Source: Actinomycetes bacterium (GTDB taxonomy: Bacteria > Actinomycetota > Actinomycetes > DATJPE01). From it: a DNA stretch of 55,086 nucleotides. Made by a program: the position numbers and the translations under genes. Below are positions 185 to 35,668 of this stretch, one piece after another. Under the pieces are notes generated by a model. The model did not search any database. It saw nothing but the letters and a program-made list of their open reading frames with translations, and was not told the DNA's origin. The stretch is from contig DATJPE010000068.1 in assembly GCA_035506535.1 (NCBI GenBank), positions 1 through 55,086 on the forward strand, written 5' to 3'. How positions within the stretch are numbered: the first letter of the stretch is position 1; the number at the start of each line of letters is the position of its first letter.

Positions 185-3100
185 ATGTCCGAGACGCCCG
201 CACCGACCTTCGACTTCCGGATGCTGGGGCCGCTGGCCGTCGAGCGGAACGACGTACCCGTCGCCCTCGCCGCGGAGAAGCCGCGGGCGCTGCTCGCGTT
301 CCTGCTGTTGCGGCGCAACCACGTCACTCCGATGGACTCCATCCTCGAGGCGCTGTGGGAGGACGCGCCCCCGCCGACCGCGCTGGCCGCCGCCCAGGTC
401 TACGTCTCCCAGCTGCGGCGGGCGCTGGCCGAGCCGCCGGGCCACCCGGTCACCATCGTCACCGCGCCGCCCGGGTACGTCCTGCGGGTCGACGAGCAGG
501 CGTGCGACATCGGACGCTTCGAGACCCTCCGCCGGCAAGCACGCGCCTGCGCGGATGCGCGGCAGACCGCGCGTCTGCTGCGTCTCGCCCTCGAGGAGTG
601 GAGCGGACCGGCGCTGGCGGACCTCCAGCAGTACCGGTTCGCAGCCGAGGTCGCCGCCGCCCTCGCCGAGGACCGGTTGACCACGCTCGAGGACCGAATC
701 GCCGCGGACCTGGCCTGCGGTGAGCACCGCGCTCTGGTCGGCGAGCTGACCGAGCTGACCTCGACGAACCCGTACCGCGAGACCCTGTGGGAGCAGCTCG
801 TGCTGGCCCTCTACCGGTCGGGGCGGCAGAGCGAGGCCCTGGCCGCGTACCAGCGCATGCGCGCCCTGCTTCAGGACGATCTGGGGATCGACCCGAGCCC
901 GCGGCTGCGCGACCTCGAGGCCGCGGTGCTCCGGCAGGACCCGGCGCTCGAGCGACCCGCCGATCTCCCGCCTTCGAGCCTGGCGGCAGTGGCGACCCCG
1001 GCCGCCCCGGAGCCGCCCACGATCTCCGACCCGCACGTCGTCGGTCTCCTGCTCACCGACGTCGAGGGCTCGACCCAGCTCTGGCATCGCTACGCCGACC
1101 AGATGCCGCAGGTGATGGTGGCCCACAACGACGTGGTCTCCGCGGTGGTCAGCGCCCACGAGGGACGGCTGCCACCCGACCAGGGCGAGGGCGACTCGCG
1201 CCTGGCGGTGTTCCCCTCGATCGTGCACGCCGTGGTCGCGGCCGGCGAGCTGCAGGACGCCCTGCAGGGCCACGAATGGCCGGAGGGCGTACGTCCGGCG
1301 GTGCGCATGGCGGTCCACGCGGGCAGCGTCGTCGAGGTCGCCGGGAACGTGTTCGGTTCCGCGGTACACCGCTGCGCCCGGCTGCGGGCTCTGGCCAACG
1401 GTCGCCAGGTCCTCGTGTCCGGCACCGCGGCTTCCCTCACGGGGGAGGCGCTGCCCGCGGCCTGGGAGCTGACCAGGCTCGGGCGATTCGCCTTGCGGGA
1501 CTTCGAGGACGAGGAGGAGGTGTTCCAGCTCGACCGTCGCGGCAAGGCGCTGGAGTTCCCGCCACTGCGCAGCTCGGTACGTCTTCCCGTCGACACGACG
1601 CCCTTCGTCGGGCGCCGCGACGAGGTCGAGGTGCTGGCCGGGGACGTCGCGCGGCACCGGCTCGTGACGCTGACCGGCCTCGGCGGCAGCGGCAAGACCA
1701 GATTGGCCGTCGAGTGTGCGCGGGTGTCCGTCGCGACCTTCCCAGTAGGCGTCACCTTTGTCGACCTGTCCTCCGCCACCTCGGAGACGGACTTCCGTCA
1801 AACGGTGCGGGACGCGGTCGAGAACGCGTCCCCTCACTCACTCGTCGTGCTGGACAACCTCGAGCAGATCCCGCGCGCCGGCGCGCTGGTCGCCGACCTG
1901 CTCGCACGGACACCGGCCCACGTGCTGGCCACCACCCGCCTGCCGCTCGGTGTGCCCGGCGAGGTCGTACGCCCGGTCGCCGCCATGCCCCGAGCGGACG
2001 CCGTCGCCCTGTTCCGGGAGCGAGCGATGGCCGCCGAGCCAGACGTGGAGATCGACCGCGACGTGGCCGGCGAACTGGTGGATCTGCTGGGCTGCGTCCC
2101 CTTGGCGCTCGAGCTCGCGGCGGCTCGGCTGCGCGTGGTCGACCTCGTCACGCTGCATGACACCCTCACCCGCGAGCTCAGCCTCCTCACCGACAGCGGC
2201 ACAGCGCGGCCGGAGCGGCAACGCTCGGTCACAGCGCTGCTCGTCGGCTCGTGGGACGAGCTGAGCGAGGCGCAGCGCCGGGTTCTCGGCGCCTTGGCGA
2301 CGTTCCGGACATGGACGACAGCGCAGCCACTGGCAACGACGACGGGGCTGCCCGGTGGCGACGTAATCGACGCCCTGGACCACCTCGTGTCGCGCGGGCT
2401 GGTCTCGCGCACGCGCGCAGACGGAGTCCCGACCTTCGGCGTGCTGGAGCTCGTTCGCGGCTTCGTGGAGCAGCACCTGGATCCGTCGCACGCCGAGCAG
2501 CTGCGAGCTGAGCACGCCCGGCTGTTCCTGACGCGGGCCCGGGACGCGTCCGGTGCGGCACGCGCGGAGCTGCGGGCGGCGCTGCGCTTCGTCGCGACGC
2601 AGAGCGCCGACCCGGGGCTGTCGACGGCGCAGCGGCTCGACCTCGGCCGGCTCGCCCTTCATCTGGGGTGGTACGAGGACGCCGTCGCGCTGCTGGAGCC
2701 AGTGGCCGCCGAGGCCGGCGCCGCGAACCCGCTCGGTCAGGCGCTGGTCCGTCGAGCCGGCCCGGGCGACCTCGCCCGCGGTCGCGACCTGTTGGCCGCC
2801 GCCGCGGACGGCGGCGACGCCGACGCGGCCGCGTCCCTCGGGGGGACGTACAAGGACAGCGATCCGGTTCAGTCGCGTCAGTGGTACGAGCGGGCCTTGA
2901 GCATCTCGCCCGAGGACCCCTACCCGCTGGGCAACCTCGTCGAGCTGGAGGTCCAGGAGACCGGGTCGCTCGCCTCTGTCGCGGCGCATCGCGCCCGACT
3001 CGAGGCAGGGCTTCGTCGTCGGCGCGGCGAGGCGGCGGGCCAGGAGGACCTGCCGTGGTCGTGGTTCGACGCCGGGAAGTTCGCCCTCCTGCTGGGCGAG

Positions 3101-3883
3101 GACGAGGCCGACGCGCTGCACTGCCTGCTGCGCGGGGTCACGACGGCCTCGCATCCGCAGCAGCTGCAGACGACGCTCGCGTCGATCCGCCGCCTGACCG
3201 TCCCCGGCGCCGACCCCGCGTGGGGGTTGGCAGCGCAGCTGCTCTCGCTCGCGCACGCCGCGCGCGTCGACTCCGGCGAGGGCCTGGCTGCGCCTGCCGT
3301 TACCCTGGCCGCGCCCGTCGTGGTTCTCGCCGGCGCCTCGGCGCGCGCCGACCACAAGCCGGTCATGGCCTGGCTGGAGCCGCTGGTCGCCGCGATGCCG
3401 GGCGGCGGCGGGACGATCGTCTCGGGCGGCACGAGCCAGGGGGTCAGCGCGCTGGCCGCCGCGGCTGGTCGTGAGCTGCCCGGCTGGCGCAGCGTCGGCT
3501 ACCTGCCGGCCCGGCTGCCCAGAGGTGTCACGTCGGACGACCGCTACGACCAGCTGCGCCGGACCCAAGCGGCCGGCTTCGGGCTGAGCGAGCCGCTGGC
3601 GTACTGGTCGGACCTGCTGGCCTCGCGCGTACGTCCTGCCGACGTCTACCTGCTCGGGATCGGCGGCTCGGTCCTCACCGGGCTGGAGCTGCACCTGGCC
3701 GCCGCGCTCGGCGCCGTGGTGGCCGTCGGGGGCGTGGAGTCCGCTGCCCTCGATGCGATCAGCCCGATCCCGACCGACATCCACGCCCAGCTCGTCCATC
3801 CTGAAGCTCGCAGCCTGCGCACCTGGCTGTCCACCACCGCTCCCTCTTGGAATGAACGCGGCGTTCTTCCAATAGGTCGGTAG
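185..3883 (+). CDS. SARP/BTAD regulator fused to cyclase-like, STAND NTPase, repeat and SLOG-like domains
   Basis: A 1232-residue cytoplasmic multidomain regulator. Residues about 5-90 form an OmpR-like winged helix and about 95-260 the bacterial transcriptional activator domain of SARP proteins. Residues about 285-440 match class III nucleotide cyclases: LTDVEGST and EGDSR keep the metal aspartates, but the usual NRAARL motif is HRCARL, so activity is uncertain. Residues about 480-750 are a STAND/NB-ARC-type NTPase with Walker A GLGGSGKT (near 500), Walker B VVLDNLEQ and VPLALELAAARL. Helical Sel1/TPR-like repeats follow (about 780-1000). The last 190 residues resemble the SLOG superfamily (LOG/DprA/TRPM), with SGGTSQGVS and LGIGGSVLTGLE. 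I chose the ATG at 185, not the in-frame ATG at 35, because homology begins at FRMLGPL and a -10 element sits 7 nt upstream. The SARP, cyclase and STAND calls are firm; the SLOG call is inferred from motif pattern. Target genes and ligand are unknown. Confidence 0.85.
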   Translation: MSETPAPTFDFRMLGPLAVERNDVPVALAAEKPRALLAFLLLRRNHVTPMDSILEALWEDAPPPTALAAAQVYVSQLRRALAEPPGHPVTIVTAPPGYVLRVDEQACDIGRFETLRRQARACADARQTARLLRLALEEWSGPALADLQQYRFAAEVAAALAEDRLTTLEDRIAADLACGEHRALVGELTELTSTNPYRETLWEQLVLALYRSGRQSEALAAYQRMRALLQDDLGIDPSPRLRDLEAAVLRQDPALERPADLPPSSLAAVATPAAPEPPTISDPHVVGLLLTDVEGSTQLWHRYADQMPQVMVAHNDVVSAVVSAHEGRLPPDQGEGDSRLAVFPSIVHAVVAAGELQDALQGHEWPEGVRPAVRMAVHAGSVVEVAGNVFGSAVHRCARLRALANGRQVLVSGTAASLTGEALPAAWELTRLGRFALRDFEDEEEVFQLDRRGKALEFPPLRSSVRLPVDTTPFVGRRDEVEVLAGDVARHRLVTLTGLGGSGKTRLAVECARVSVATFPVGVTFVDLSSATSETDFRQTVRDAVENASPHSLVVLDNLEQIPRAGALVADLLARTPAHVLATTRLPLGVPGEVVRPVAAMPRADAVALFRERAMAAEPDVEIDRDVAGELVDLLGCVPLALELAAARLRVVDLVTLHDTLTRELSLLTDSGTARPERQRSVTALLVGSWDELSEAQRRVLGALATFRTWTTAQPLATTTGLPGGDVIDALDHLVSRGLVSRTRADGVPTFGVLELVRGFVEQHLDPSHAEQLRAEHARLFLTRARDASGAARAELRAALRFVATQSADPGLSTAQRLDLGRLALHLGWYEDAVALLEPVAAEAGAANPLGQALVRRAGPGDLARGRDLLAAAADGGDADAAASLGGTYKDSDPVQSRQWYERALSISPEDPYPLGNLVELEVQETGSLASVAAHRARLEAGLRRRRGEAAGQEDLPWSWFDAGKFALLLGEDEADALHCLLRGVTTASHPQQLQTTLASIRRLTVPGADPAWGLAAQLLSLAHAARVDSGEGLAAPAVTLAAPVVVLAGASARADHKPVMAWLEPLVAAMPGGGGTIVSGGTSQGVSALAAAAGRELPGWRSVGYLPARLPRGVTSDDRYDQLRRTQAAGFGLSEPLAYWSDLLASRVRPADVYLLGIGGSVLTGLELHLAAALGAVVAVGGVESAALDAISPIPTDIHAQLVHPEARSLRTWLSTTAPSWNERGVLPIGR

Positions 3884-3905: not shown

Positions 3906-4006
3906 GTGGGGGCTGGGAACCCGCACGTCGTGCCCGTAGGTGCATAGGCCGTCGCGGAGGGTTACCTCGGGTGCCACCCCGGGACTACGTTGCGTGATCA
4001 TCCGCG

Positions 4007-4020
4007 CCTCCTCGAGGAGG
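4007..4020 (+). promoter_or_regulatory. Ribosome binding site embedded in a 14-bp palindrome
   Basis: CCTCCTCGAGGAGG is a perfect palindrome whose right half is the GAGGAGG Shine-Dalgarno for the ATG at 4026. Folded in RNA (5-bp stem, 4-nt loop) it would mask the ribosome binding site, which could limit translation. Confidence 0.45.
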
Positions 4021-4025
4021 GGACC

Positions 4026-5054
4026 ATGGCGTCGAACCGGGACCTCGAACAGCAAGTGGCGGAACTGACCCAGAAGCTGGAAGCACTGCAAGCCGCGGTG
4101 ATGCGGCGGGAGGACGTACCTGCCCCGGAGCAGCCCGCGGACCACGCCGCGGACCACGTCGTGTCGCGACGCGGCCTGCTCACCTCGTTGCCCGTCCTCG
4201 CCGCGGCCGGCGCCGGCGCGATGGCGCTGAGTGGGCTGACCGCGAGCCCGGCCGCCGCGGCCGCGGGCGACCCGTTGCTGCTCGGCCAGTCCAACGACCC
4301 CAGCGACCAGACCACGTCGCTGTTCATGACGAACAGCACCGACTACGCGCTCGACGTGACCACCGGCGGCATCCACGCCTCGACGATGCACATCGGCGAC
4401 GGCCAGGTGAACGACGACGGCGACCTCACCGTGCTGAGGTACGACGACTACACGCTGTACGTCGAGTGCCGCAACCAGGTCAGCAGCAGCGCGGACCACG
4501 GTGGCAGCGCGATCTACGCCGACGGCTTCATGGCGGCCGCCATCGTCGTCGACGGCTACGAGGGGCTACCGAACGGCCAGTCCCAGCCCAACAACGTCAC
4601 CCCCGGCCTGGGCCTCGACATCACCGGCCACGACTCCAGCCCGGGCATCCACGTCAAGACCGACGCGGCGGAACTGCTGCACGCCTCGCAGGGCGACACC
4701 TCGACCTCGACCGACGCGGCGCAGATCGTCACCCACGGCTTGGGCCGCGGCCTGTACGTCCAGTCGGTCAACACCTCCAACGCCAACGGCACGATCACCG
4801 GCGTCAACGCAGGCTCCGGTGCTGGCGTGTGGGGGACGAACTCCTCCTCCTCGCACGCCGGCATCGGCGTCGTCGGGGTCGGCGGGACCATCGGGCGGGG
4901 CGGGCGCTTCCGCGGCGGCGCCGCGGCCGTCCAGCTGCAGCCCTCCACCGCCTCGACCCACCCCGGCAGCGGCCAGGCCGGCGACCTGTTCGTCGACGCC
5001 AGCCACCGCCTGTGGTTCTGCAAGGGCGGCACCACCTGGCACCAGCTCGCCTGA
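4026..5054 (+). CDS. Tat-exported protein of unknown function, first of a tandem pair
   Basis: A 342-residue protein with an unusual N-terminus. Residues 1-30 form a short heptad-like coiled coil (LEQQVAELTQKLEALQ), followed by a linker and a twin-arginine signal SRRGLLTSL (Arg48-Arg49), a hydrophobic Ala-rich segment and an Ala-rich cleavage region near 80-90. The exported part is polar, rich in Asp, Thr, Gly and Ser and probably beta-structured. The last 60 residues (GVVGVGGTIGRGGRF through WFCKGGTTWHQLA) resemble C-terminal modules of surface or fibre-like actinobacterial proteins. The ATG at 4026 has a GAGGAGG ribosome site; an upstream in-frame start at 3990 would precede that site. It is followed 111 bp later by a paralogue. 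No enzymatic motif is seen and no function can be assigned. Confidence 0.8.
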   Translation: MASNRDLEQQVAELTQKLEALQAAVMRREDVPAPEQPADHAADHVVSRRGLLTSLPVLAAAGAGAMALSGLTASPAAAAAGDPLLLGQSNDPSDQTTSLFMTNSTDYALDVTTGGIHASTMHIGDGQVNDDGDLTVLRYDDYTLYVECRNQVSSSADHGGSAIYADGFMAAAIVVDGYEGLPNGQSQPNNVTPGLGLDITGHDSSPGIHVKTDAAELLHASQGDTSTSTDAAQIVTHGLGRGLYVQSVNTSNANGTITGVNAGSGAGVWGTNSSSSHAGIGVVGVGGTIGRGGRFRGGAAAVQLQPSTASTHPGSGQAGDLFVDASHRLWFCKGGTTWHQLA

Positions 5055-5165
5055 CACCGCTGGGTACCCCTTCGTACACGCAATCTTGCGGAACGTCACC
5101 GCACGCGCCCGTACGGGTTTACCGTGCCGCTGATCATCTTCCCCGGGGTGCCCAGGAGGTACGCG

Positions 5166-6188
5166 ATGGCGTCGACGCACGACCTCGAGCAGCAGGTGGC
5201 CGAGCTGACCCAGCAGGTGGCCGAGCTGAGGGAGTTGCTGGGCAGGCGGGAGGACGTACGCCCTCCCGCCGCTCCCGCGACCCGCGAAGCGAAGGTCTCC
5301 CGCCGAGGCCTGCTCACCTCCCTGCCGGCCCTCGCGGCCGCCGGTGCGGGCGCGGCGGCGCTGACCGGTCTCGCCGCGAGCCCCGCCCACGCCGCAGCCG
5401 GTGACCCGATGCTGCTCGGCCAGGTCAACGACCCCGGCGGCCAGACCACGTCACTGTCCATGCCGGACGAGACCGACGTCGCGATCGACGTCACGAACGG
5501 CGGAATCCACGCCAGCACCATGCACATCGGGGACCAGGCGGAGGGCGACAACGGCGACGTGTACGTCCTGCTGGAGGACCAGATCGCCCTCGCCGTCTAC
5601 TCCCGCAATCTGGTACGCAGCGCCGTGGAGTGGGGCGGCACAGCCATCTACGCCTCCGGCAAGATGGCGCCGGCCATCTCCCTCGACGCCTGGGACGGCG
5701 CCCCCAACGGCGTCGCCCCGCCGTTCGTCACGGTCCCCGGGATCGGCGTCCAGATCGTCGCGCACGACACCAGCCAGGGCATCGTCGCCTCCACCGAGAC
5801 CGCCGACGTGCTCGACCTCACCCAGTCCGACACGTCCACGACGACCGACGCCGCCCACCTCGTCACTCATGGGCTCGGACGAGGGGTGTACGTCGAGGCC
5901 GTCAACACCGCCAACGACAACGGCACCGTCACGGGCGTCAACTACGGCTCGGGCGCCGGCGTGTGGGGCACGAACGCCTCCGCCGTCCACGCCGGCATCG
6001 GCGTCGTCGGGGTCGGCGGGACCATCGGGCGGGGCGGGCGCTTCCGCGGCGGCGCCGCGGCCGTCCAGCTGCAGCCCTCTACCGCCTCGACCCACCCCAG
6101 CAGCGGCCAGGCCGGCGACCTGTTCGTCGACGCCAGCCACCGCCTGTGGTTCTGCAAGGGCGGCACCACCTGGCACCAGCTCGCCTGA
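5166..6188 (+). CDS. Tat-exported protein of unknown function, second of a tandem pair
   Basis: A 340-residue paralogue of the preceding gene with the same architecture: an N-terminal coiled coil (AELTQQVAELRELLG), linker, twin-arginine motif SRRGLLTSL (Arg46-Arg47), hydrophobic Ala-rich segment and an Asp/Thr/Gly-rich exported domain. The two proteins differ at many positions in the middle but are nearly identical in the last 65 residues. The corresponding DNA (4861-5054 against about 5995-6188) shows only two substitutions, which points to recent gene conversion or strong constraint. The ATG at 5166 follows AGGAGGT with good spacing. The gene ends 7 bp before the convergent acetyltransferase gene. 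Function unknown. Confidence 0.8.
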   Translation: MASTHDLEQQVAELTQQVAELRELLGRREDVRPPAAPATREAKVSRRGLLTSLPALAAAGAGAAALTGLAASPAHAAAGDPMLLGQVNDPGGQTTSLSMPDETDVAIDVTNGGIHASTMHIGDQAEGDNGDVYVLLEDQIALAVYSRNLVRSAVEWGGTAIYASGKMAPAISLDAWDGAPNGVAPPFVTVPGIGVQIVAHDTSQGIVASTETADVLDLTQSDTSTTTDAAHLVTHGLGRGVYVEAVNTANDNGTVTGVNYGSGAGVWGTNASAVHAGIGVVGVGGTIGRGGRFRGGAAAVQLQPSTASTHPSSGQAGDLFVDASHRLWFCKGGTTWHQLA

Positions 6189-20653: not shown

Positions 20654-21844
20654 CTACTTGAGGAAGTCGGGCACGTCCAGGTCGTCCTCGGCGCCGGCCG
20701 TGTCGTCGAAGACGATCGGGCGGCGCACCCGGGCCGGCTCGCTCGGCAGCTGGACGGTGCGCTCCGGCTGCCCCGTCTCCTCGCCCGCTTCCCCGGCGGG
20801 CGAGGCCGGCGGCTCGGTGGCCGGGGCCGGCGACAGCGCCGGCGCCGGGACCGGCAGGTCCTCGTCGGAGCGCAGCGGCTTGGTACGCGCCTTCGGCTCC
20901 CCGCCGTCGAACCCCGCGGCGATGACCGTCACCCGGACCTCATCGCCCAACGCGTCGTCGATGACCGCACCGAAGATGATGTTCGCCTCGGGGTGCGCCG
21001 CCTGCTGGACCAGGCCGGCGGCCTCGTGGATCTCGAAGAGGCCGAGGTCGGAGCCGCCGGAGATCGACAGCAGCACGCCGCGCGCTCCCTCGATGGAGGC
21101 CTCGAGCAGCGGGCTGGACACGGCCATCTCGGCGGCGGCCGCGGAGCGGCCCTCGCCGCGGGCGTGGCCGATGCCCATGAGCGCCGAGCCCGCGCCGCTC
21201 ATGATCGACTTCACGTCGGCGAAGTCGAGGTTGATCAGCCCCGCGGTCGTGATGAGGTCGGTGATGCCCTGCACACCCGAGAGCAGGACCTGGTCGGCGG
21301 AGCGGAAGGCGTCGAGCGCGCTCACGTTGCGGTCGCTGATCGACAGCAGGCGGTCGTTGGGGATGACGATGAGCGTGTCGACCTCGGCCCGCAGGTCCTC
21401 GATGCCGGACTCGGCCTGGGTCTGGCGGCGGCGTCCCTCGAAGGAGAAGGGTCGAGTGACGACGCCGACGGTCAGGGCGCCCAGCTCTCGGGCGATGCGC
21501 GCGACGACCGGCGCGCCCCCGGTGCCGGTCCCGCCACCCTCGCCGGCGGTGACGAAGACCATGTCGGCCCCCTTGAGGACCTCCTCGATCTCATCGGCGT
21601 GGTCCTCGGCGGCGCGCCGGCCGATCTCGGGGTCGGCCCCGGCCCCGAGACCGCGGGTCAGGTCGCGGCCGACGTCGAGCTTGACGTCGGCGTCGCTCAT
21701 GAGCAGCGCCTGGGCGTCGGTGTTCACCGCGATGAACTCCACGCCGCGCAGGCCCACCTCGATCATCCGGTTCACCGCGTTGACGCCGCCTCCGCCGATC
21801 CCGACGACCTTGATGACCGCGATGTAGTTCTGCGGAGCTGCCAT
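20654..21844 (-). CDS. ftsZ: Cell-division GTPase FtsZ
   Basis: A 396-residue tubulin-like GTPase that forms the Z-ring. The GTP signature [12 protein letters not shown] is at about residues 100-111, the T7 synergy loop [11 protein letters not shown] near 201-211, and the first loop [13 protein letters not shown] near 15-27. After the globular core (about 315 residues) a Pro/Ala/Glu linker leads to the conserved C-terminal peptide [10 protein letters not shown] that binds SepF and other partners. ATG 21844 has a GGAGG ribosome site. It is preceded by a 199-bp leader region with its own promoter signals, so it need not depend on read-through from ftsQ. Confidence 0.98.
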
Positions 21845-21865
21845 CCCACGCCTCCGAACAGCCTC

Positions 21866-21908
21866 ACCCTCAGGTTGAGGGTAATAGTTATGTCATGTTG
21901 AGGGTTAG
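21866..21908 (-). promoter_or_regulatory. Repeats and hairpin in the ftsZ 5' leader
   Basis: TTGAGGGT occurs at 21875-21882 and 21899-21906 (direct repeat, 24 bp apart), and ACCCTCA (21866-21872) with TGAGGGT (21876-21882) forms a 7-bp dyad. On the minus strand these lie just after the predicted transcript start and 22 bp before the ftsZ start codon. They could bind a regulator or fold in the RNA. Confidence 0.55.
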
Positions 21909-21913
21909 GGAGG

Positions 21914-21943
21914 ACCGTAGGGGACTCGGGGCGCGAGAGGCAA
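21914..21943 (-). promoter_or_regulatory. ftsZ: Predicted ftsZ promoter
   Basis: On the minus strand, TTGCCT (21938-21943) and TACGGT (21914-21919) are separated by 18 bp, predicting a start near 21907 and a leader of about 63 nt. Confidence 0.5.
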
Positions 21944-22043
21944 GTTCCCGGGCCACCTTGGGCGGCCAGGAACCATGCTGCACACCCGATCTGGGCCGCA
22001 TCTGTGACGAATCAGACGAATCAGACGCTCGACCGGTGCGGTG

Positions 22044-22778
22044 TCACGGCGTGACGGTCGGTGCCGTCGGCGCGCTGACGTCGAAGGTCCTCGCACTCGG
22101 GTGCAGCCGCTGCAGCGCCGCAAGGACCCGCGCCTTGAGCGCGACGTCGCTCGGACCGCCCCAGAACACGGTGGCGCCGCTCTTGAGGTCCAGGCGCATG
22201 TCGGTGGGGTCGAACACCGCGATCTGGGTGGTCGTGCGCAGCAGCGGGACGGGGAGGGTCTGCGCCACGCTCAGTGCCGCGCTCACCTCCTGCGGGGTCG
22301 CGTCGGTCATGTCCAGGCCGACGTGCGGATAGGGCGCCCCCGGCGAGGCGTTCGCGAAGTCGACCCCCGAGGCGTCGATGAGCCGCGGCTGACCGGCGCG
22401 CATGACGACGGCGACCGGCACCCGGTCGGTGACGACGATGCGCACGGTGTGCGGCCAGGACTGGCGCACGTCGACGTCGGCGACGGTCGGCAGCTGCGCC
22501 ACCCGGTGCGCGATCGCGCGCAGCCGCACCTTCAGCAGCGGCCGCCCGAGTGGGACCCGCGCGACCTGGCGGACCTCGGCCGCGCTGGTGCGCTTGCCGG
22601 TGACCACCTCGACGGAGCTGACGGAGAAGTAGCGCGACCAGCCCACGGCCCACACCGCGACGAGCACGACGGCGAGCACGAGCACGATGACGCTGCGCCG
22701 GACCCGTCGCCGGCGGCGCTCGCGCCGGGCTCGCTCGCTCGAGCGCTGCACGAAGGGACGTACGTCGGTCGCGGTCAT
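22044..22778 (-). CDS. ftsQ: Cell-division protein FtsQ
   Basis: A 244-residue single-pass division protein of the FtsQ/DivIB family. The N-terminus is very basic (RARRERRRRRVRRS), followed by one membrane helix (about 29-48) and the outer POTRA domain (YFSVSSVEVVTGKRTSAAEV) and beta domain. It recruits FtsL and FtsB/DivIC and regulates septal peptidoglycan synthesis. ATG 22778 overlaps the murC stop by ATGA. Sequence after the stop has a 9-bp tandem repeat GACGAATCA at 22006-22023. Confidence 0.92.
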   Translation of the reverse strand: MTATDVRPFVQRSSERARRERRRRRVRRSVIVLVLAVVLVAVWAVGWSRYFSVSSVEVVTGKRTSAAEVRQVARVPLGRPLLKVRLRAIAHRVAQLPTVADVDVRQSWPHTVRIVVTDRVPVAVVMRAGQPRLIDASGVDFANASPGAPYPHVGLDMTDATPQEVSAALSVAQTLPVPLLRTTTQIAVFDPTDMRLDLKSGATVFWGGPSDVALKARVLAALQRLHPSARTFDVSAPTAPTVTP

Positions 22779-24160
22779 CAGCCCTCCGCCTGCAGCAGGG
22801 CCACGACCTCGGGCCCGATCATGGTCACGTCCCCGGCGCCGAGGGTGAGCACGAGGTCCCCCGGTCGCGCCCGCTGCGCCAGCCGCGGCGCCACGGCCGA
22901 CCACGACGGCTCGAAGCTCACCCGCTCCGGCGGCAGGGGCACGGCAGCCGCCACCGACTCCCCCGACGCCCCCGGCACCGGGTCCTCCCCCGCCGGGTAG
23001 ACCTCGAGCACCGTGACGTCGTCGGCGAGCGCCAGGGCCTGGCCGAACTCCTGCCGGAACGCGGCGGTCCGCGAGTAGCGGTGCGGCTGGAAGGCCACGA
23101 CCAGCCGCCCCTCCCCCGCCACCTGGCGCGCCGCGGTCAGCGTCGCGCGGATCTCGGTCGGGTGGTGGGCGTAGTCGTCGTAGACACGTACGCCGCGCCC
23201 GGACCCCTTGAGCTCGAAGCGGCGGCGGGTCCCGGTGAAGCCGGCGAGTCCGTCGCGCAGGTCCGGCCACGGCAGCCCCAGCCCGAGGCCGGCCGAGAGG
23301 GCGGCGGCGGCGTTGGCCGCGTTGTGCCGGCCGGCGAGGCGCAAGGTGAGGCTGCCGAGGCGGCGACCGTGGTGCACGACCTCGCAGCGCGACCCCGGTC
23401 CGGGACTCTCCAGCGTCAGGCTCTCCAGCCGCAGGTCGGCGTCGGGGCTCTCGCCGTAGGTGCGCACGTCGATCCCGGCGCCCCGGGCGAAGCGCGCCAA
23501 GCGCAGCGCGCCCGGGTCGTCCGCGCAGAGCACGACGAACCCCTCGGAGTGCACCCGCAGCAGGAACGCCTCGAACGCGGCATCGACGGCGTCGCTGTCG
23601 GCGTAGTGGTCGAGGTGGTCGGGCTCGACGTTGGTGACGACGGCGACCAGCGGGTCGAGGGCGAGGAAGGAGCCGTCGCTCTCGTCGGCCTCGGCGATGA
23701 ACAGGTCGCCGCTGCCGTCGTGGGCGTTGACGCCGGACTCGGCGAGGTTGCCGCCGATGGCGAAGGACGGGTCCACGCCGCAGTGCTGGGCGGCCACGGT
23801 CATCATCGACGTCGTCGTCGTCTTGCCGTGCGTGCCGGCGATCGCCACGCCGCGACGCCCGCGCATCACCTCCGCCAGGGCCTCCGCCCGCGGCAGCACC
23901 GCGATCCCCTGCCGCCGCGCCTCGACGACCTCGGGATTGTCCGGGCGGATCGCGGAGGACACCACGACCGCGTCGGCGCCGGAGACGTACGTCGCGTCGT
24001 GCCCGACGTGGACCCGCGCCCCGAGCGCCCGCAGCGCGCTGACCTCGCGGCCCTCCTTGGCGTCACTGCCCGACACCTCGATGCCGCGCGCGAGCATGAT
24101 GCGCGCGATCCCGGACATGCCGGCACCGCCGATGCCGACGAAGTGGACGTGCCGGCTCAT
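22778..24160 (-). CDS. murC: UDP-N-acetylmuramate-L-alanine ligase MurC
   Basis: A 460-residue cytoplasmic Mur ligase that adds L-Ala to UDP-MurNAc using ATP. The N-terminal Rossmann motif [16 protein letters not shown] (residues 5-20), the ATP loop [12 protein letters not shown] (about 110-121), ADESDGSFL and the family [12 protein letters not shown] segment near 327-338 are all present. Length is typical. It overlaps murG by 4 bp and ftsQ by 1 bp at ATGA. Confidence 0.97.
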
Positions 24161-25245
24161 CGCGCCGCCGCCTCGACGACCAGGTCCACCAGCTGCTCGT
24201 CGGCGTCGCGGCGGCCGAACGCCGCGGCCGCGCGGCCCATCGCCGCGAGCCGTTGCGGGTCGCGCAGCAAGGCGACCACGTCCGTGGCGACGTAGTCAGG
24301 GGTGCACGCGGCATCGTCGACGAGCACCCCGCCGCCCGCGTCGACGACCGGGCGCGCGTTGAGCCGCTGCTCCCCGTTGCCGATCGGCAGGGGCACGTAG
24401 ACCGCGGGCAGCCCGACGGCGGCGAGCTCCGCGCACGTGTTGGCGCCGGCGCGGGCCAGCATGAGGTCGGCGGCGGCGTAGCCGAGCTCCATGCGCTCGA
24501 GATAGGGCACGACGACGTACGGCGGGTCGTCGGGGCGGGGGTCGATGCGCACCGTGTTCGCGGGGCCGGTCGCGTGCAGCACCTGCACACCGGCGTCCGC
24601 CAGGGCGCGAGCCGCGCCGGCGACGGCCTCGTTGAGCCGGCGCGAGCCCTGCGACCCGCCGCTCACGAGCAGGGTCGGCCGGTCCGGGTCCAGCCCGAAC
24701 CCGGCGCGCGCGGCGGCGCGCTCGGCGTCGCGGTCGAGGTGGGCGACGGCCGGCCGCAGCGGGAGCCCGACGTAGCGGCCGCGGGCGAGCACGCCGGGGA
24801 CCGCGACGGCGACGTACGGCGTGAAGCGCGCGCCCAGGCGGTTGGCGAGCCCCGCCCGGACATTGGCCTCGTGGACGACGTAGGGCACCTTGCGCGCACG
24901 CGCCGCGAGGTACGCCGGCCCGGCGACGTAGCCACCGAAGCCGACGAGCGCGTCCGCGTGCGTGCGGTCGAGCACGCCCTCCGCGGCGCGGACCGCGGCC
25001 CGCATCCGGGTGGGCACACGCAACAGGTCAGGGCTCGGGCGCCGGGGCACGGGCACGGCGGGGATGAGCGCCAGGTCGTAGCCGCGCTCGGGGACCAGCC
25101 TGGTCTCCAGCCCACGCTCGGTGCCGAGCATCGTGATGCCGACGTCGGGGAAGCGGCGACGCAGCGCGTCGGCCAGCGCGAGGGCGGGCGAGATGTGACC
25201 TGCCGTCCCCCCGCCGGCGAGCACGACGTGCTGCAGCGGTTCCAC
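24157..25245 (-). CDS. murG: MurG UDP-GlcNAc:lipid I N-acetylglucosaminyltransferase
   Basis: A 362-residue peripheral membrane GT28 enzyme that converts lipid I to lipid II. The N-terminal G-loop [16 protein letters not shown] (about 10-25) and the C-terminal donor motifs [36 protein letters not shown] and [14 protein letters not shown] are clear. GTG start at 25245, 4 bp after the ftsW stop. Confidence 0.97.
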
Positions 25246-25249
25246 GGGA

Positions 25250-26515
25250 TCAGATCCTGCGCAGCATCGCCCAGGCCCGCCGCATCCGGTCGCGCCGGTG
25301 GGCCCGGTGCGCGGCGAGCGCCTCCGCCGCTCCGGGCTCGGAGCGGGCCAGGGACATGAGGACGCCGAGCGCCACCAAGGTGACGAGCAGGGCGGAGCCG
25401 CCGTAGGACACCAGCGGCAGCGGCAGGCCGGCGATCGGCAGCAGGCCCAGCACGGCGCCGATGTTGATGAGCGCCTGCCCGGTGATCCACACGGTGATTC
25501 CCGCGGCGGCGAGGCGCACGAAGGGGTCGCCGCAGCGCAGCGCGATCCGGATGCCGGCGTAGGCGAGCAGCCCGAACAGCGCGAGCACCGTGAGGGTGCC
25601 GATCAGGCCGAGCTCCTCGCCGATGACCGCGAAGATGAAGTCGGTGTGCGCCTCCGGCAGAGCCCCCCACTTCTCCCGGCCGGCACCGAGCCCGAGGCCC
25701 CACCAGCCGCCGGAGCCGAGCGCGTACTTGCCGTGCAGGGCCTGCCAGCCGGTGCTCGTGGGGTCGGCCTGGTTGGGGTGCAGCCAGTCGGTGAAGCGCG
25801 TCGAGCGGTGGGTCGCCGAGACCGACAGGTAGGTCACCATCGCGATGGCCGCCCCGCCGAGCAGCACGAACAGCCGCATCGGCGCACCCGTGACGAAGAG
25901 CACGACCAGGGTCACCATGACGATGATCACCGCTGTGCCCAGGTCGTCCTCGGCGAGCACCAGCGCCACCACCGCGAGCGCCGCGGGCAGCACGGGGATC
26001 AGCAGGTGCCGCCAGGTGTCGAGCAGCTTGCGCTTGCGGGCCAGCACGTCGGCGGCGTAGAGGATCAGCGCCAGCTTCGCGGCCTCCGACGGCTGCAGCC
26101 GGAACGGGCCGCCGATGTTGATCCAGTTGCGGTTGCCGTTCACCGCCACGCCGATGCCGGGCACCATGACGAGCGCCAGCAGCGCGAGGGAGCCGATGAG
26201 CGCCGGCAGCGCGAGGATGCGCCACGTGCGCACCGGCATCCGCGAGGCGAGCAGCATCGCGGGAACGCCGACGGCCGCCCACATGAGCTGACGCGCGACG
26301 ATGCCGAAGGCCGAGCCGGTGTCGGCGTACTCGATGACCGAGCTGGCGGAGAACACCATGACCACGCCGAGCCCGAGCAGCAGCGTCGTGCAGCCCATCA
26401 CGATGAGATAGGACGCCAGCGGCTGGTCGAGGACGGCGGCGACTCGCGCCGACATCCCCCCGTGGTGCTCGGCGTCGGCGACGACCAGCGGCCGCGGGCG
26501 CACGGACTGCGTCAC
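25250..26515 (-). CDS. ftsW: SEDS-family septal glycosyltransferase FtsW
   Basis: A 421-residue integral membrane protein with about ten hydrophobic segments. It is the lipid II polymerase that works with FtsI at the septum. Typical SEDS sequences are [13 protein letters not shown] (about 139-151), [28 protein letters not shown] region near 276-303, and [12 protein letters not shown] near 372. The N-terminal 30 and C-terminal 40 residues are cytoplasmic and basic. The GTG start overlaps the murD stop (GTGA). Confidence 0.96.
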
Positions 26516-27930
26516 GGAGCGGCCTCCGTGGCGAGAGCCCGTACCGCCTCGGCGAACGCGTCACCGCGGTGCGCGTAGTCACGGAAGAGGTCCATCGACG
26601 CCGCCGCGGGGGCGAGCAGCACGGTGTCACCGGGCCGCGCGAGGGCGGCGGCGCGACGGACGACGTCGGTCATGACGTCAGTCTCCGTGCTGGCCACGTC
26701 CACGACGGGGACCTCGGGCGCGTGTCGCGCCAGCGCGTCGGCGATGACCGCGCGGTCGGCGCCGAGCACCACGACGCCGCGCAGCCGCGAGCGTACCGCC
26801 GGCACGAGCTCGTCGAAGGTCGCGCCTTTGACCAGGCCTCCCGCGATCCAGACGACCGAGTCGTAGGCGCGAAGCGACGCAGCGGCTGCGTGCGGGTTCG
26901 TCGCCTTGCTGTCGTCGACATAGGAGACCCCGTCGACGACGGCGACGAGCTCGATGCGGTGGTGCCCTGGGCGGAAGCCGCGCAGCCCGTCGCGGACCGC
27001 CACCGGCGGGACGCCGTACGCACGCGCCAGTGCCGCCGCGGCGAGGGCGTTCGCCACGTTGTGCGGGGCGTTCGGGATGACGTCGCGCAGGGTCGCGAGC
27101 TCGGCCGCCGACGTCGCCCGCTCCTCGACGAACGCGCGGTCGACGAGGATGTCGTCGACGACGCCGACCATGCCCACCGAGGGCACCCCGAGGGTGAAGC
27201 CGATGGCACGGCAGCCCTCCACGACGTCGGCCTCGACGACCAGCCGCTCGGTCCACGGGTCCGCGACGTTGTACACGCACGCGACCTGGGCTCGCTGGTA
27301 GATCCGGCCCTTGTCGCGCGCATAGGCCTCCATCGAGGAGTGCCAGTCGACGTGGTCCTCGGCGATGTTGAGCACCGCCGATGCCAGCGCTGACATCGAG
27401 AACGTCCGGTGCAGCTGGAAGCTGGACAGCTCGACCGCGATGACGTCGTACGGCTGCTCGGCCGTGACCGCGTCGACGAGGGCGAGCCCGACGTTCCCGG
27501 CGGCCACCGCGCGTTTCCCCGACGCGACGAGCATCGCGGCGAGCATCTCCACCGTCGTGGTCTTGCCGTTGGTCCCGGTGAGCGCGAGCCACGGTGCGGC
27601 GCCCTCGGGCCGCAGGTGCCACGCCAGCTCGATCTCGCTCCACACCGGGATGCCGGCTGCCTCGGCCGCGACGAGCAGCGGCGCGTCGGGCCGCCAGCCG
27701 GGGCTCGCGACGACGAGGGTGATCGCGTCGGGCACCGCCTCGATCGCCCCCGCACCGAGCCGTACGTCGGCGCCGAGGACCTCGAGCACGCCCGCGCGCT
27801 CGCTCGTCGGCCCGGCCTCGCTGCGGTCCACGACGACGACCCGGGCGCCGCGACGCAGCAGCGCGTCGGCCGCCGCGAAGCCGGAGACGCCGACGCCGGC
27901 GACGAGGACGCGGGCGTCCTCCCACCTCAC
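26512..27930 (-). CDS. murD: UDP-N-acetylmuramoyl-L-alanine-D-glutamate ligase MurD
   Basis: A 472-residue Mur ligase that adds D-Glu. Visible motifs: N-terminal [18 protein letters not shown]-loop [14 protein letters not shown] (about 123-136), [10 protein letters not shown] and the C-terminal [15 protein letters not shown] typical of MurD. GTG at 27930 was chosen because it overlaps the mraY stop as GTGA and is directly before the Rossmann motif. The frame is open further upstream inside mraY, but that extension has no MurD homology. Confidence 0.96.
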
Positions 27931-29006
27931 CGGGAGACCCCTCCCCCGCCGACCCACTCGGCATAGAACAGGCCGAGGCCGAGGCCGGCGCACAGCCCCG
28001 CGATGACCCAGAACCGGATGACGATGGTGACCTCGCCCCAGCCCTTGAGCTCGAAGTGGTGCTGCAGCGGCGCCATCAGGAACAGTCGTTTCTTGGTCAG
28101 CTTGTAGCCGCCGACCTGCAGGATCACCGACATCGTGATGACCACGAACAGGCCGCCGAGAACGAGGAGAAGCAGCTCGGTGCGCGACAGGATCGCGATG
28201 CCGGACAGCAGCCCGCCGAGGGCGAGCGAGCCGGTGTCGCCCATGAAGATCTGGGCCGGCGACGCGTTCCACCACAGGAACCCGAAGCAGGCACCCAGCG
28301 CGCCGGCCGCCACGACCGCGAGGTCGAGCGGGTCGCCGACGGTGTAGCAGCGCGGTGCGACCGCGGCCTCGCAGGAGTTGCCGAACTCCCAGACGCAGAT
28401 GACGACGTAGGCGCCGAGCACCATGACCGAGGCGCCGGTCGCGAGGCCGTCGAGCCCGTCGGTGAGGTTCACGCCGTTCGAGGCGGCGATGATCATCGCG
28501 AGGACCCACAGGAAGAACAGCGCGGTGGGCAGCACCACCGGGGTGTCGCGGACGAAGGAGACCGCGCGTGAGGCCGGTGAGATGCCCGCGTCGTCGTGGG
28601 TGTTGAGGGCCACGACGGCGAACACGAACGCCACCAGCGTCTGGCCGCCCAGCTTGACGCGGGCGCGCAGCCCGGCGCTGCGCTGCCGGAAGATCTTGAT
28701 GTAGTCGTCGAGGAAGCCGACCGCGGCCAGGCCGGTCATGAGGAAGAGCACGAGCAGCCCGGAGGGCGAGGGGGCGCTGACGGTGTAGAGGTGCGCGGCG
28801 ACGTACCCGGCGAGCGTCCCGCCGACGATGACCAGCCCGCCCATCGACGGCGTACCGCGCTTTCCGGAGTGCGCCGGGTAGTGGCCGTGGGACTCGTCAC
28901 GGATCGCCTGCGCGTAGCCGTGCCGCTTCAGCGTCCGGATGAGCAAGGGCGTCGCGAACAGGCCGATGACGAGGCCGACCGCGGCGGCGATGAGGACGAG
29001 CCTCAC
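27927..29006 (-). CDS. mraY: Phospho-N-acetylmuramoyl-pentapeptide transferase MraY
   Basis: A 359-residue integral membrane enzyme with about ten helices that transfers phospho-MurNAc-pentapeptide to undecaprenyl phosphate, giving lipid I. The catalytic regions [15 protein letters not shown] (about 99-113) and [12 protein letters not shown] (about 175-186), with the conserved aspartates, and [12 protein letters not shown] (about 255-266) are present, as is [11 protein letters not shown] near the end. GTG start at 29006 overlaps murF stop by GTGA. Confidence 0.97.
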
Positions 29007-30373
29007 GACGCCGCCTCCGCGAGCAGCGCGGCGACGACGCGCTCGAGGCCGATCGAGCGCGACGCCTTGACGAGCACGACGTCGCCGGGCCGGACCTGGG
29101 CGTCGAGGAGGGCCACCGCCGCGTCGACGTCGGGCACGACCTCGCCGGACCCGGCACCGCGCACGATGGCGGCCGCGTCATCGCCGACGACGACGAGACG
29201 GTCGATGCCGAGCTTCGCCGCGTGCCGACCCACGTCGGCGTGCTCGACCTCGCTCGACTCCCCCAGCTCGAGCATCTCGCCCAGGACCGCCCACGTCCGC
29301 CGGTCCGCGCCGAGCGCCGCGAGCGCGTCGAGGGCGGCGCGCATCGAGTCGGGGCTGGCGTTGTACGCGTCGTTGACCACGGTGACGCCGTCCGCGCGCT
29401 CGCGAACCTCCATCCGCCACCGGCTCGCGGGACGGGCCGCCGACAGCGCCGCGGCGACGGCCGCGACGTCCATCCCGAGCTCGCGGGCGACGGCCGCCGC
29501 GGCGAGCGCGTTGCCCACCTGGTGCGCGCCGACGTAGGCCAGCTCGACCGGTGCGACGCCCTCGGGGGTCAGCAGCGTGAAGGCGGGACGGGCGCCGGCG
29601 AGAAGGCGGATGTCCGTCGCGCGCACGTCGGCGCCGTCGGCGCGACCGACGAGAACCACGCGTGCCGCGGTCCGGGCCGCCATCGCCCGCACGCGGGGGT
29701 CGTCAGCGTTGAGCACCGCCACGCCGTCGGCGGGCAGCGCCTCGACCAGCTCGCCCTTGGCGAGCGCGATCCCCTCGACCGAGGCGAACTCGCCGAGGTG
29801 GGCGCTCCCCACGTTGAGCACCGCGCCGATGCGCGGAGGCGCGATCTCGGTGAGCGCCCGGATGTGCCCGATCCCCCGGGCCCCCATCTCGGCGACGAGC
29901 GCGCGGGTCTCCTCGCTGACCCGCAGCACGGTGAGCGGCAGGCCGATCTCGTTGTTGTTGTTGCCTCTCGCGGCGACGGTCGGCATCGCCGGGGCGAGCG
30001 TCGACGCGAGCAGGTCCTTGGTCGAGGTCTTGCCGGCCGACCCGGTGATGCCGACCACGACGAGGTCCGGCGACCGCCCGACGACGGCACGTGCGAGGTG
30101 GCCGAGCGCCACGACGGTGTCGGGGACGATGACGGCCGGTACGCCCACCGGGTAGTGCGCCAGCACCGCGGCCGCGCCGGATCGCCGGACGGCGTCGACG
30201 GCGAAGTCGTGGCCGTCGTGCCGCGTTCCCGGGATCGCGACGAACAGCCCGCCCGGTCCCACCTCCCGCGAGTCGACCGACACCTCGCCGGTGACCACCG
30301 CCTCGGGGTCCGGCACCGCGTCCAGGGTGCCGCCGACGGCGCGGGCGACGTCGGCGAGCCGGGTCGGGATCAC
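29003..30373 (-). CDS. murF: UDP-MurNAc-tripeptide-D-alanyl-D-alanine ligase MurF
   Basis: A 456-residue Mur ligase that adds D-Ala-D-Ala to the tripeptide. N-terminal [31 protein letters not shown]-loop [16 protein letters not shown] (about 103-118), [11 protein letters not shown] and [12 protein letters not shown] are diagnostic. I chose GTG at 30373 because it makes a GTGA overlap with the murE stop, like the other junctions in this operon; a TTG at 30385 would add four residues. Confidence 0.96.
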
Positions 30374-31887
30374 CGTGCCCCCCAAGACGCCGGTGCGGCC
30401 AGCAGCTCGCGGAGCACGACCCGGTCGTCGAAGGCGCGCACCTCGCCGTGGACCTCCTGGCCCTGCTCGTGACCCTTGCCGGCCACCACGACCGCGTCAC
30501 CGGAGACGGCGAGGGAGACCGCGAAGGCGATCGCCTCCGCCCGGTCGAGCTCGGCGTGCACCTGCGCGGCGCCCGCGACCTCGCGCGCGCCGGCGAGCAT
30601 CGCGGCGACGATCTCCGCCGGGTCCTCCGAGCGCGGGTTGTCACTCGTGAGCACCACCACGTCGGCGAGCTCGGCAGCGACCCGGCCCATCGGCGCGCGC
30701 TTGGAGGCGTCGCGGTCGCCACCGCACCCGAGCACCACGATCACCCGGCCCTCGGTGATCTCGCGCACGGTCTCCAGCAGCCGCCGCACGGCCTCGGGCG
30801 TGTGCGCGTAGTCGACGACGGCCAGGTAGCCCTGCCCGGCGTCGACCCGTTCCATGCGCCCGGGCACCCCGGGGAGGTCGGCGATCCCCTCGGCGGCGGC
30901 GTCGAGCGGCACCCCGGCCGCGTCGAGCGCCGCCACGGCGAGCAGGGCGTTGGAGACGTTGAAGCTGCCCGGCAGCGCGACCGACACCTCGACCTCCCGA
31001 CCGGCCGGACCGGCCGCCCGGAAGCGCGACCCGACCGCGGTCGCGTCCACCGCGACCGCGCGCCAGTCCGCCGGGACGTCGGGCGCCAGGGCAACGGTCG
31101 TGACCGGCACCCCCGCCTCGCGGGCCAGGCGCCGACCCCACTCGTCGTCGACGGCGACGACACCGAGCCGGCTGCGCTCGGCACGGAACAGCGAGGCCTT
31201 GGCGGCGAAGTAGTCCTGCATGCTCGGGTGGAAGTCGAGGTGGTCCTGGCTGAGGTTGGTGAACACCGCGACGTCGTACGTCGTGCCGTCCACCCGGCCG
31301 AGGGCGAGCGCGTGCGAGCTCACCTCCATGGTGACCGCCGAGCACCCGCGCTGCACCATGAGGGCGAGCAGCGCCTGCACCTGAGGCGCCTCGGGCGTGG
31401 TGCGCACGCTCGGCAGGACCTCGCCGGCGACGCGGGTCTCCACGGTCCCGACCAACCCGGTGCGCCGCCCCGCCGCCCGCAGGCCGGCGTCGAGCAGGAA
31501 CGCCGTCGTCGTCTTGCCGTTGGTGCCCGTCACCCCGAGCAGCAGCAGCTGCTCGTCGGGATGCCCGTACACCTGGGCCGCCAGCCCGCCGAGGACCGCG
31601 CGCGGGTCGGCGACGACGAGACACGGCAGTCCGGCGGCCGCCGCGTCGTCGACCCCGGCGGAGTCGGTGAGGACGGCCACGGCGCCACGCGCCGCGGCCT
31701 GGCCGGCGAAGCGCGCGCCGTGGGTGTGAGCGCCCGGCAGCGCCGCGTACAGGTCGCCCGGCTCGACGTCGCGGGAGTCCAGGCAGACCCCGGTCACGGC
31801 CACATCCGCGGGCGGCGGCTCGGCGCCCAGTCGAGCGGCCAGGGAGCGCAGCGGGACCGGCGGCACGACCGGGCGGGCGTCGGGCAC
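30370..31887 (-). CDS. murE: UDP-MurNAc-tripeptide synthetase MurE (diaminopimelate-adding)
   Basis: A 505-residue Mur ligase adding the third amino acid. Motifs: DSRDVEPGDLYAALPG near 38-53, P-loop [15 protein letters not shown] (about 116-130), MEVSSHALALGRV and the substrate motif SDNPRSEDP, in which DNPR is the signature for diaminopimelate rather than lysine. The peptidoglycan is therefore expected to contain DAP. GTG at 31887 lies 7 nt after a TAGCCT -10 element, so a separate leaderless transcript within the operon is likely. Confidence 0.97.
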   Translation of the reverse strand: MPDARPVVPPVPLRSLAARLGAEPPPADVAVTGVCLDSRDVEPGDLYAALPGAHTHGARFAGQAAARGAVAVLTDSAGVDDAAAAGLPCLVVADPRAVLGGLAAQVYGHPDEQLLLLGVTGTNGKTTTAFLLDAGLRAAGRRTGLVGTVETRVAGEVLPSVRTTPEAPQVQALLALMVQRGCSAVTMEVSSHALALGRVDGTTYDVAVFTNLSQDHLDFHPSMQDYFAAKASLFRAERSRLGVVAVDDEWGRRLAREAGVPVTTVALAPDVPADWRAVAVDATAVGSRFRAAGPAGREVEVSVALPGSFNVSNALLAVAALDAAGVPLDAAAEGIADLPGVPGRMERVDAGQGYLAVVDYAHTPEAVRRLLETVREITEGRVIVVLGCGGDRDASKRAPMGRVAAELADVVVLTSDNPRSEDPAEIVAAMLAGAREVAGAAQVHAELDRAEAIAFAVSLAVSGDAVVVAGKGHEQGQEVHGEVRAFDDRVVLRELLAAPASWGAR

Positions 31888-31894
31888 GGCTGGC

Positions 31895-31900
31895 AGGCTA
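31895..31900 (-). promoter_or_regulatory. murE: Internal -10 element (TAGCCT) for a leaderless murE transcript
   Basis: On the minus strand TAGCCT ends exactly 7 nt before the GTG of murE and there is no ribosome site in between. No convincing -35 is seen. Confidence 0.5.
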
Positions 31901-31905
31901 CGCGG

Positions 31906-33738: not shown

Positions 33739-34091
33739 GACCCGCCGCCCAGCCGCAGGAAGCGCGGCCGGCCGCCGGGCACCATGCCCAGCGCGCGCGC
33801 CTTGGCGGCGAGCTCCTCGGGCGACTGCAGCACGGCCACCTGCTGCTGCAGCTGCTGCTCCTGGTCCTCCAGCGCCGCTTGGTGGCGCTGGAGGTCCTGG
33901 ACGGTGAAGGAGTCCTGCGCGAGGGCGGTGTTGAGCGCGAGCAGGGTGAGCAGCCCACCGACGAGCAGGAGGAGCAGCAGCAGCGCGAAGGCGCCCCGCT
34001 TCGCGTGCGGCCGCGGCTGCGGGACCACCCGCAGCGAGGAGGGGGCGCTGCCCGGCCGCGCCTGGGTCCGAGCGATGGCGGCGCCGCTCAC
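33735..34091 (-). CDS. ftsL: FtsL-like septum formation protein
   Basis: A 118-residue bitopic protein: basic N-terminus ([10 protein letters not shown]), one membrane helix ([19 protein letters not shown], about 35-53) and a coiled coil with Gln/Leu heptads (about 63-92), ending with the FtsL-type ALGMVPGG. Position between rsmH and ftsI is the standard place for ftsL. It would form a complex with FtsQ and a DivIC-type partner. GTG start overlaps rsmH by GTGA. Confidence 0.9.
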
Positions 34092-35035
34092 GCCGCCTCC
34101 CTGATCCGCTCGGCGGCGCGCAGTCGCGCCGACGCCGCCCGAGGATTGGCGGCGACCTCGTCCGCCCCTGGCGTCTCCGCGCCCCGGGTGAGCAGCCGCA
34201 GCCTCGGCGCGAGCTCCTCGGGGACGACGGGCAGGTCCACGGGAGCCTGGCTGGTGGCGAGGGCGGCGAAGGCCCGCTTCACGAGGCGGTCCTCGAGGGA
34301 GTGGTAGGAGAGGACGACGATCCGGCCGCCGACGGCCAGGGCGTCGATCGCGGCGGGCAGCGCGCGCTCCAACGCGCGCAGCTCACCGTTGACCTCGATG
34401 CGCAGCGCCTGGAAGGTCCGCTTGCTCGGGTTGCCACCGCTGCGGCGTGTGGCCGCGGGGATCGCCTCGCGCACGACCTCGACCAGCCGGGCGGTCGAGC
34501 TGAACTCCTCGATGCTGCGCTCCCGCACCACGCGCTCGGCGATGCGGCGTGCGAAGCGCTCCTCTCCGTACTCCGAGAGCACCCGGGCGAGCTCCTCGGC
34601 GGGATAGGTGTTGAGCACCTCCGCGGCCGTGATGCCGCTCGTCGCGTCCATCCGCATGTCCAGCGGGGCGTCCTTGGCGTAGGAGAAGCCGCGGCGCGAC
34701 TCGTCGAGCTGGAGGGAGGACACGCCCAGGTCGAAGAGCACGCCCTGCACGTGGGACAGGCCGAGCCGGGCGAGCACCGCCGGCAGCTCGTCGTAGACCG
34801 CGTGGACGAGCGTGGTGCGCTCGGCGAAGGGGGCCAGCCGCTCCTGGGAGCGGGCGATCGCCTCGGTGTCGCGGTCCAGGCCGACCAGGCGCAGGCTCGG
34901 GTGGGCGGCCAGCAGGGCGTCGCTGTGCCCGCCGAGGCCGACGGTGGCGTCCACCACGACCGCTCCCGGCTCCCGTACGGCCGGCGCGAGCAGCGCCAGA
35001 CAGCGCTCCAGCAGGACGGGCACGTGCTCGCTCAT
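34088..35035 (-). CDS. rsmH: 16S rRNA (cytosine1402-N4)-methyltransferase RsmH
   Basis: A 315-residue SAM-dependent methyltransferase acting on 16S rRNA C1402. The start [12 protein letters not shown], the SAM motif [14 protein letters not shown] (about 31-44), [18 protein letters not shown] and the conserved [16 protein letters not shown] near 245 are present. ATG 35035 was chosen over a long upstream extension of the same frame that runs through mraZ without homology. It is the second gene of the dcw cluster. Confidence 0.97.
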
Positions 35036-35105
35036 CTGGACCTTTCGGGCGGTGGGATTCGGGTGGGGGGCCGTGGGGGCGGGTCCCCGCCCGCTCGAGG
35101 GGGCT

Positions 35106-35131
35106 CCCGGCACCGGGGAAGGTGCGCCGGG
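35106..35131. other. Stem-loop between mraZ and rsmH
   Basis: CCCGGCACC (35106-35114) and GGTGCGCCGGG (35121-35131) form an interrupted stem in the 146-bp gap between mraZ and rsmH, about 70 bp before the rsmH start. It may attenuate or stabilise the mRNA; no T-run. Confidence 0.4.
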
Positions 35132-35181
35132 AACTGAGCGGGAGGAGACCGACCACCACGGACGCGGGGTCGGCGGTCCGG

Positions 35182-35619: not shown

Positions 35620-35668
35620 CGGTGCAACGCGCTCCTCCCACTCCCACAGAGGCCCCTCTTGCCTCCAG

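Follow-up and report, generated by a model that had tools for sequence, protein, structure and literature searches.

A gene near one end of a 55,086-nucleotide stretch of actinomycete DNA (contig DATJPE010000068.1; hereafter the window) encodes P0001, a 1232-residue protein in which a SARP-type activator, a cyclase-like domain, a STAND NTPase, a TPR array and a SLOG domain follow one another in one chain. Judged by sequence, the fusion is made of known parts in a new order. It is so far a singleton, as none of the relatives found for its C-terminal end carries a SARP head and 394 other same-class genomes lacked the TPR-SLOG module except for one weak SLOG match (2e-6). With moderate confidence, we lean towards the reading that P0001 is a large SARP activator of the AfsR kind with a mobile TPR-SLOG sensor end, and that a nucleotide gates it through STAND autoinhibition.

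SARP head and STAND switch

An earlier note, made from the sequence alone, had proposed a SARP-cyclase-STAND-repeat-SLOG architecture, and Pfam, matches to solved structures and AlphaFold support all five parts within the single open reading frame (Table 1). The N-terminal region has the order of a SARP regulator, an OmpR-type helix-turn-helix domain followed by BTAD, with both Pfam models above their cut-offs, in line with the SARP/BTAD head read in the note. It also matches the solved structures of EmbR (7e-58) and AfsR (1e-43). Against the AfsR equivalog model (NF053617, NCBIfam), P0001 scored 180 bits, below the cut-off of 1430.

The Walker motifs described as intact are indeed present. 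They lie in a region (residues 465-800) with many homologs among actinobacterial cyclase-STAND and SARP-STAND proteins, and the AAA match of this region in Pfam is weak. Walker A, Walker B, homology across the winged-helix region and TPR helices in the position of a repeat sensor together identify a STAND NTPase.

Streptomyces AfsR (SARP-NOD/STAND-arm-TPR; PMC10936776) resembles P0001 in its SARP head, STAND switch and C-terminal TPR sensor region, but has neither a cyclase nor a SLOG domain. In AfsR, the SARP is inhibited by the NOD and TPR domains, and ATP binding relieves the inhibition (PMC10936776). By analogy, the two proteins likely share this autoinhibition logic.

Table 1. Features of P0001, with positions in the window
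Feature	Residues	Position	Strand	Basis
Whole gene P0001, SARP-cyclase-STAND-TPR-SLOG protein	1232 aa	185..3883	+	single open frame
OmpR-type DNA-binding domain (Trans_reg_C)	31-99	275..481	+	Pfam PF00486, 4e-8
Bacterial transcriptional activator domain (BTAD)	107-249	503..931	+	Pfam PF03704, 1e-40
Class III cyclase-like domain	286-448	1040..1528	+	PDB Ma1120, 1e-8; alignment of relatives
HRCARL, His at transition-state Asn position, Arg399 kept	395-400	1367..1384	+	alignment with cyclase-STAND relatives
STAND NTPase with winged-helix region	about 470-800	1592..2584	+	homology to cyclase-STAND and SARP-STAND proteins; AAA_22, 1.4e-3
Walker A, GLGGSGKT	498-505	1676..1699	+	read from sequence
Walker B, LVVLDN	553-558	1841..1858	+	read from sequence
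TPR array (helices), including TPR-S match at 830-920	814-1028	2624..3268	+	Pfam PF20308, 3e-6, above cut-off; AlphaFold helices
Predicted SLOG domain, LSDAT/TRPM-like	about 1044-1215	3314..3829	+	AlphaFold, Foldseek, homologs
Glycine loop SGGTSQG	1080-1086	3422..3442	+	alignment with relatives
LGIGGSVLTGLE loop	1157-1168	3653..3688	+	alignment with relatives

The TPR-SLOG end and its relatives

AlphaFold modelling of residues 806-1232 (43 sequences; pLDDT 90.9, pTM 0.89) produced an array of thirteen helices, in keeping with the helical repeats seen earlier, followed by an alpha/beta domain. Because TPR proteins, O-GlcNAc transferase among them, dominated Foldseek searches with the whole module, the SLOG domain was folded alone (pLDDT 86.2). 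Its best matches in the PDB were Moco carrier proteins (TMt 0.72), TRPM4, TRPM8, TRPM2 and a mycobacterial LOG (Rv1205), at 1e-6 to 2e-4. The C-terminal Rossmann-like domain that the note had read from its two loops is thereby confirmed, at the level of a predicted structure, as a SLOG fold of Rossmann type and not plain TPR or HEAT repeats. The MHR1/2 regions of TRPM2 and TRPM4 share this fold (Foldseek about 6e-6 to 2e-4), although identity to P0001 is 11-17% and those proteins are ion channels, not transcription factors. Profile searching, as the note had suggested in another form, gave a divided result: 41 of the 43 aligned SLOG domains matched LSDAT_prok (PF18171) at E<=0.01, whereas P0001 itself reached 14.6 bits against a cut-off of 25.4, and its match to the Pfam YAcAr SLOG model (residues 1044-1097) was also weak and below cut-off.

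The SLOG assignment can be sharpened to a TRPM/LSDAT-like type that forms a single module together with the TPR array. In BLASTP against a complete RelA_SpoT-TPR-SLOG-RyR homolog, residues 806-1232 gave an alignment of 410 residues with 35% identity (E 4e-46). Compared separately, the TPR part was 35% identical to relative L076 (3e-19), which argues that TPR and SLOG were acquired together. By homology, residues ~820-1200 are one mobile module common to the RelA/SpoT-TPR-SLOG(LSDAT_prok)-RyR proteins (L068-L108). P0001 contains the whole of this module, with SARP-cyclase-STAND in place of RelA/SpoT; neither the RelA/SpoT head nor the RyR tail was found in it by Pfam. Thoeris ThsA (sirtuin-SLOG; PMC7272460) likewise has a SLOG domain C-terminal to an N-terminal output domain, but its SLOG belongs to the STALD family, not the LSDAT-like type, and its output is an NADase and not transcription.

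A phylum-wide search recovered true homologs of the module in three genomes. Two of these have LSDAT_prok and RyR behind the TPR array; one of the pair carries a complete RelA_SpoT head, and its counterpart is clipped by a contig end. The third consists of a truncated SLOG. Class-level matches (33% identity, E to 4e-9) were rejected as SLOG homologs, being PLP-dependent decarboxylases that share TSGGTxSN by convergence or chance, and most other weak matches at the phylum level may be chance likenesses of a similar kind. The decarboxylases (L021-L028, L031) have SGGTxSNxxALAAAxERxLPG in common with the SLOG loop and are a trap for sequence searches. A tblastn search of plasmids gave no match, and no relative was found among viral contigs.

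Scanning of one genome for each of 84,980 species with the module alignment, by way of two conserved peptide patterns, identified 41 loci in many phyla, all in metagenome-assembled genomes. Since P0001 itself fits both patterns, a close sister fusion should have surfaced, but more diverged sisters may have escaped. Among 42 proteins scanned for domains, that of the window included, RelA_SpoT was present in 37, RyR in 36 and LSDAT_prok in 36; BTAD was present in P0001 only.

Three clusters recur among the genes flanking the 41 loci: one containing Nudix (19 loci), one of TIR/WD40/NACHT type (20 loci) and one resembling TrkA_N-RyR channels (15 loci). About half of the loci adjoin TIR/STAND-type or Nudix genes. 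As clusters were built by single BLAST linkage, the numbers are only approximate and unrelated genes may have been grouped together; cluster representatives were confirmed by Pfam. In an Akkermansiaceae metagenome-assembled genome, Nudix, RelA_SpoT, TPR, SLOG and RyR are combined in one chain (L088:6432-9518). Phage RyR-domain proteins sequester or cleave cADPR signals (PMC13232231). Taken with the Nudix and TIR neighbours and the Nudix fusion, this points, by analogy, to NAD/ADP-ribose-type ligands for the RelA/SpoT-TPR-SLOG-RyR family. By appearance, L068-L108 constitute a putative nucleotide-signalling conflict system. The RelA domains of three members (L068:7239-9725, L070:1805-4321 and L088:6432-9518) match the PADLOC candidate family PDC-S33; PADLOC found no match in P0001.

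Much of the SLOG core is conserved in P0001. Within SGGTSQG, G1081 and G1086 are invariant among relatives and G1082 and T1083 are at least 95% conserved. In the LGIGGSVLTGLE loop, G1158, G1161 and E1168 are kept, and G1162, invariant in relatives, is Ser. Other strongly conserved residues are retained (Tyr1106, Trp1141, Asp1143); besides G1162, P0001 departs from its relatives at Y1169, which is Leu, and in a shortened SGR loop. With family-invariant residues changed, the ligand specificity of P0001, or even binding itself, may differ from that of its relatives. In a tree, the nearest SLOG was that of a Thermoleophilia protein (L105), on a placement that bootstrap left unsettled, and the branch to P0001 was long. 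The Thermoleophilia SLOG, from a metagenome-assembled genome (L105:7830-8492 and L034), has no RelA or TPR region ahead of it in the same frame, adjoins a nitroreductase-like gene and is clipped by a contig end.

The genomic setting of P0001 appears to differ from that of the module loci. Downstream lie two similar secreted-type proteins, followed by what we take from the translations to be lspA, an rluA-type gene, an ileS-like gene and cell-wall and division genes. The first two, encoded in tandem (window 3990-5054 and 5124-6188), are 354 residues long, carry a signal of twin-arginine type (SRRGLLTSLP) and are nearly identical at their C-termini. A cluster at 20657-35688, presumably FtsZ, MurC, MurG, FtsW, MraY, MurF, MurE, FtsI and MraZ by its translations, places P0001 in the core chromosome. 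No Nudix, TIR or RyR gene is apparent in the gene list just downstream, and the contig ends upstream. A search of the source genome for TIR_2 was negative with positive controls; a search for RyR gave no match, and none of its controls was positive either. The cADPR-type context of the relatives thus appears to be missing, and P0001 stands, as far as seen, without TIR, Nudix or TrkA-RyR neighbours.

The absence of module-typical partners from the downstream gene list and of TIR_2 from the genome, together with the long branch, the shortened SGR loop and the loss of several residues invariant in 42 relatives, is what would be expected if the SLOG domain were a degenerate structural end piece with no ligand and the regulator answered to ATP or to a protein partner through its TPR array. 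We consider this rather unlikely, as the fold, the glycine loops, Trp1141, Asp1143 and Glu1168 are kept and roughly two in three strongly conserved SLOG positions are unchanged.

The cyclase-like domain, SLOG chemistry and integrity of the gene

Against Pfam PF00211, the cyclase-like domain taken alone scored 4.5e-4, below the cut-off; it is clear against solved cyclases, both Ma1120 and the trypanosomal Gresag (2.5e-9). The two metal aspartates noticed earlier are Asp292 and Asp337. The substrate-specifying Lys and Asp are replaced by Gln and Asn, and the transition-state Asn by His, at positions that we assigned by the pattern of Rv1625c-type cyclases; Arg399 is kept. Such replacements alone are no proof of inactivity. 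The actinobacterial cyclase-STAND proteins (for example L110-L129) are 31-44% identical to P0001 over the cyclase domain. When 60 same-class genomes were searched and the alignable cyclase relatives compared, His was the commonest residue at the Asn position of NxxxR (about 12 of 19 in a visual count that includes P0001). HRCARL, which the note had contrasted with the usual NRAARL, is therefore a family trait and was rejected as the mark of an unusual cyclase. With 11 cyclase matches above cut-off, the source genome is cyclase-rich. The domain in P0001 is a candidate either for a second output or for a structural linker.

Having both domains in one chain, with the metal aspartates and Arg399 retained, would also suit a closed loop of the kind raised in the note, with cAMP or a related nucleotide produced by the cyclase and sensed by the SLOG domain. 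We regard this as improbable: the substrate and transition-state positions are altered, and cAMP binding is known for none of the SLOG relatives encountered. Because cyclase-STAND proteins lacking SLOG are common, the union of the two domains probably reflects accretion and not their joining as a pair.

Slightly less probable still is that the SLOG domain is itself an enzyme, a LOG-like nucleotide hydrolase that consumes the signal while the STAND switch reports turnover. The fold matches do include a LOG (Rv1205), but the LOG-type PGGxGTxxE signature is absent from P0001, and the relatives match LSDAT_prok, a sensor-type family. The domain looks like a sensor, and the suggestion in the note that it might process a nucleotide found no support.

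P0001 is one intact gene with a real open reading frame. The frame runs from an ATG at 185, which is 184 bases from the contig end, to a stop at 3883. It is open upstream to the contig edge, and ATG 185 is a sensible start given that the SARP core begins at residue 9; a separate gene in another frame terminates at base 108. The sequence contains no N, and codon-position GC is similar across the five domains (0.77-0.81, 0.46-0.59 and 0.86-0.93), which makes an assembly join unlikely. An artefactual union of a SARP-cyclase-STAND gene with an unrelated TPR-SLOG gene, which the single draft assembly of 102 contigs and the failure to find a second full fusion might suggest, is highly improbable in light of these features, the more so as the join would fall within a TPR array that SARP-STAND proteins can carry anyway.

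Proposed gating and its implications

From the domain order, STAND motifs, predicted SLOG fold and module homology, we infer a ligand class, a mode of gating and activation of genes as follows. At rest, the TPR-SLOG end would keep the STAND NTPase autoinhibited. Binding of a small nucleotide in the SLOG cleft, with the ADP-ribose, NAD or adenine-nucleotide class as the likeliest candidate, would close the domain, much as MHR1/2 of TRPM2, its ADPR site, closes like a clamshell on binding (PMC6759353). The TPR array would relay this closure so that the STAND domain takes ATP, and the freed SARP head could then engage its site on the DNA and bring in RNA polymerase. SLOG is proposed as the ligand site by analogy with the release of AfsR by ATP, and from AfsR (PMC10936776) it is a reasonable inference that a SLOG ligand would gate the STAND and SARP domains. 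Such an arrangement suggests that P0001 may place transcription under the direct control of a nucleotide signal.

A more specific version, which we find possible but doubtful, is that P0001 converts alarm into transcription within one protein, its TRPM-like SLOG domain sensing an ADP-ribose-type signal of stress or infection and its STAND switch directly activating SARP targets.

An open question for AfsR is whether any inducer binds at its sensor end (PMC10936776); for this question, the sensor end of P0001 offers a recognisable ligand-binding fold, as predicted, and a candidate ligand class. P0001 also indicates that a transcription factor can acquire a TPR-SLOG module of the RelA/SpoT-SLOG-RyR type, and its predicted fold connects sensors of bacteria with the ADP-ribose site found in TRPM channels. 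If the alarm-to-transcription reading is true, a sensor module of conflict systems would have been wired into the scaffold of an antibiotic regulator.
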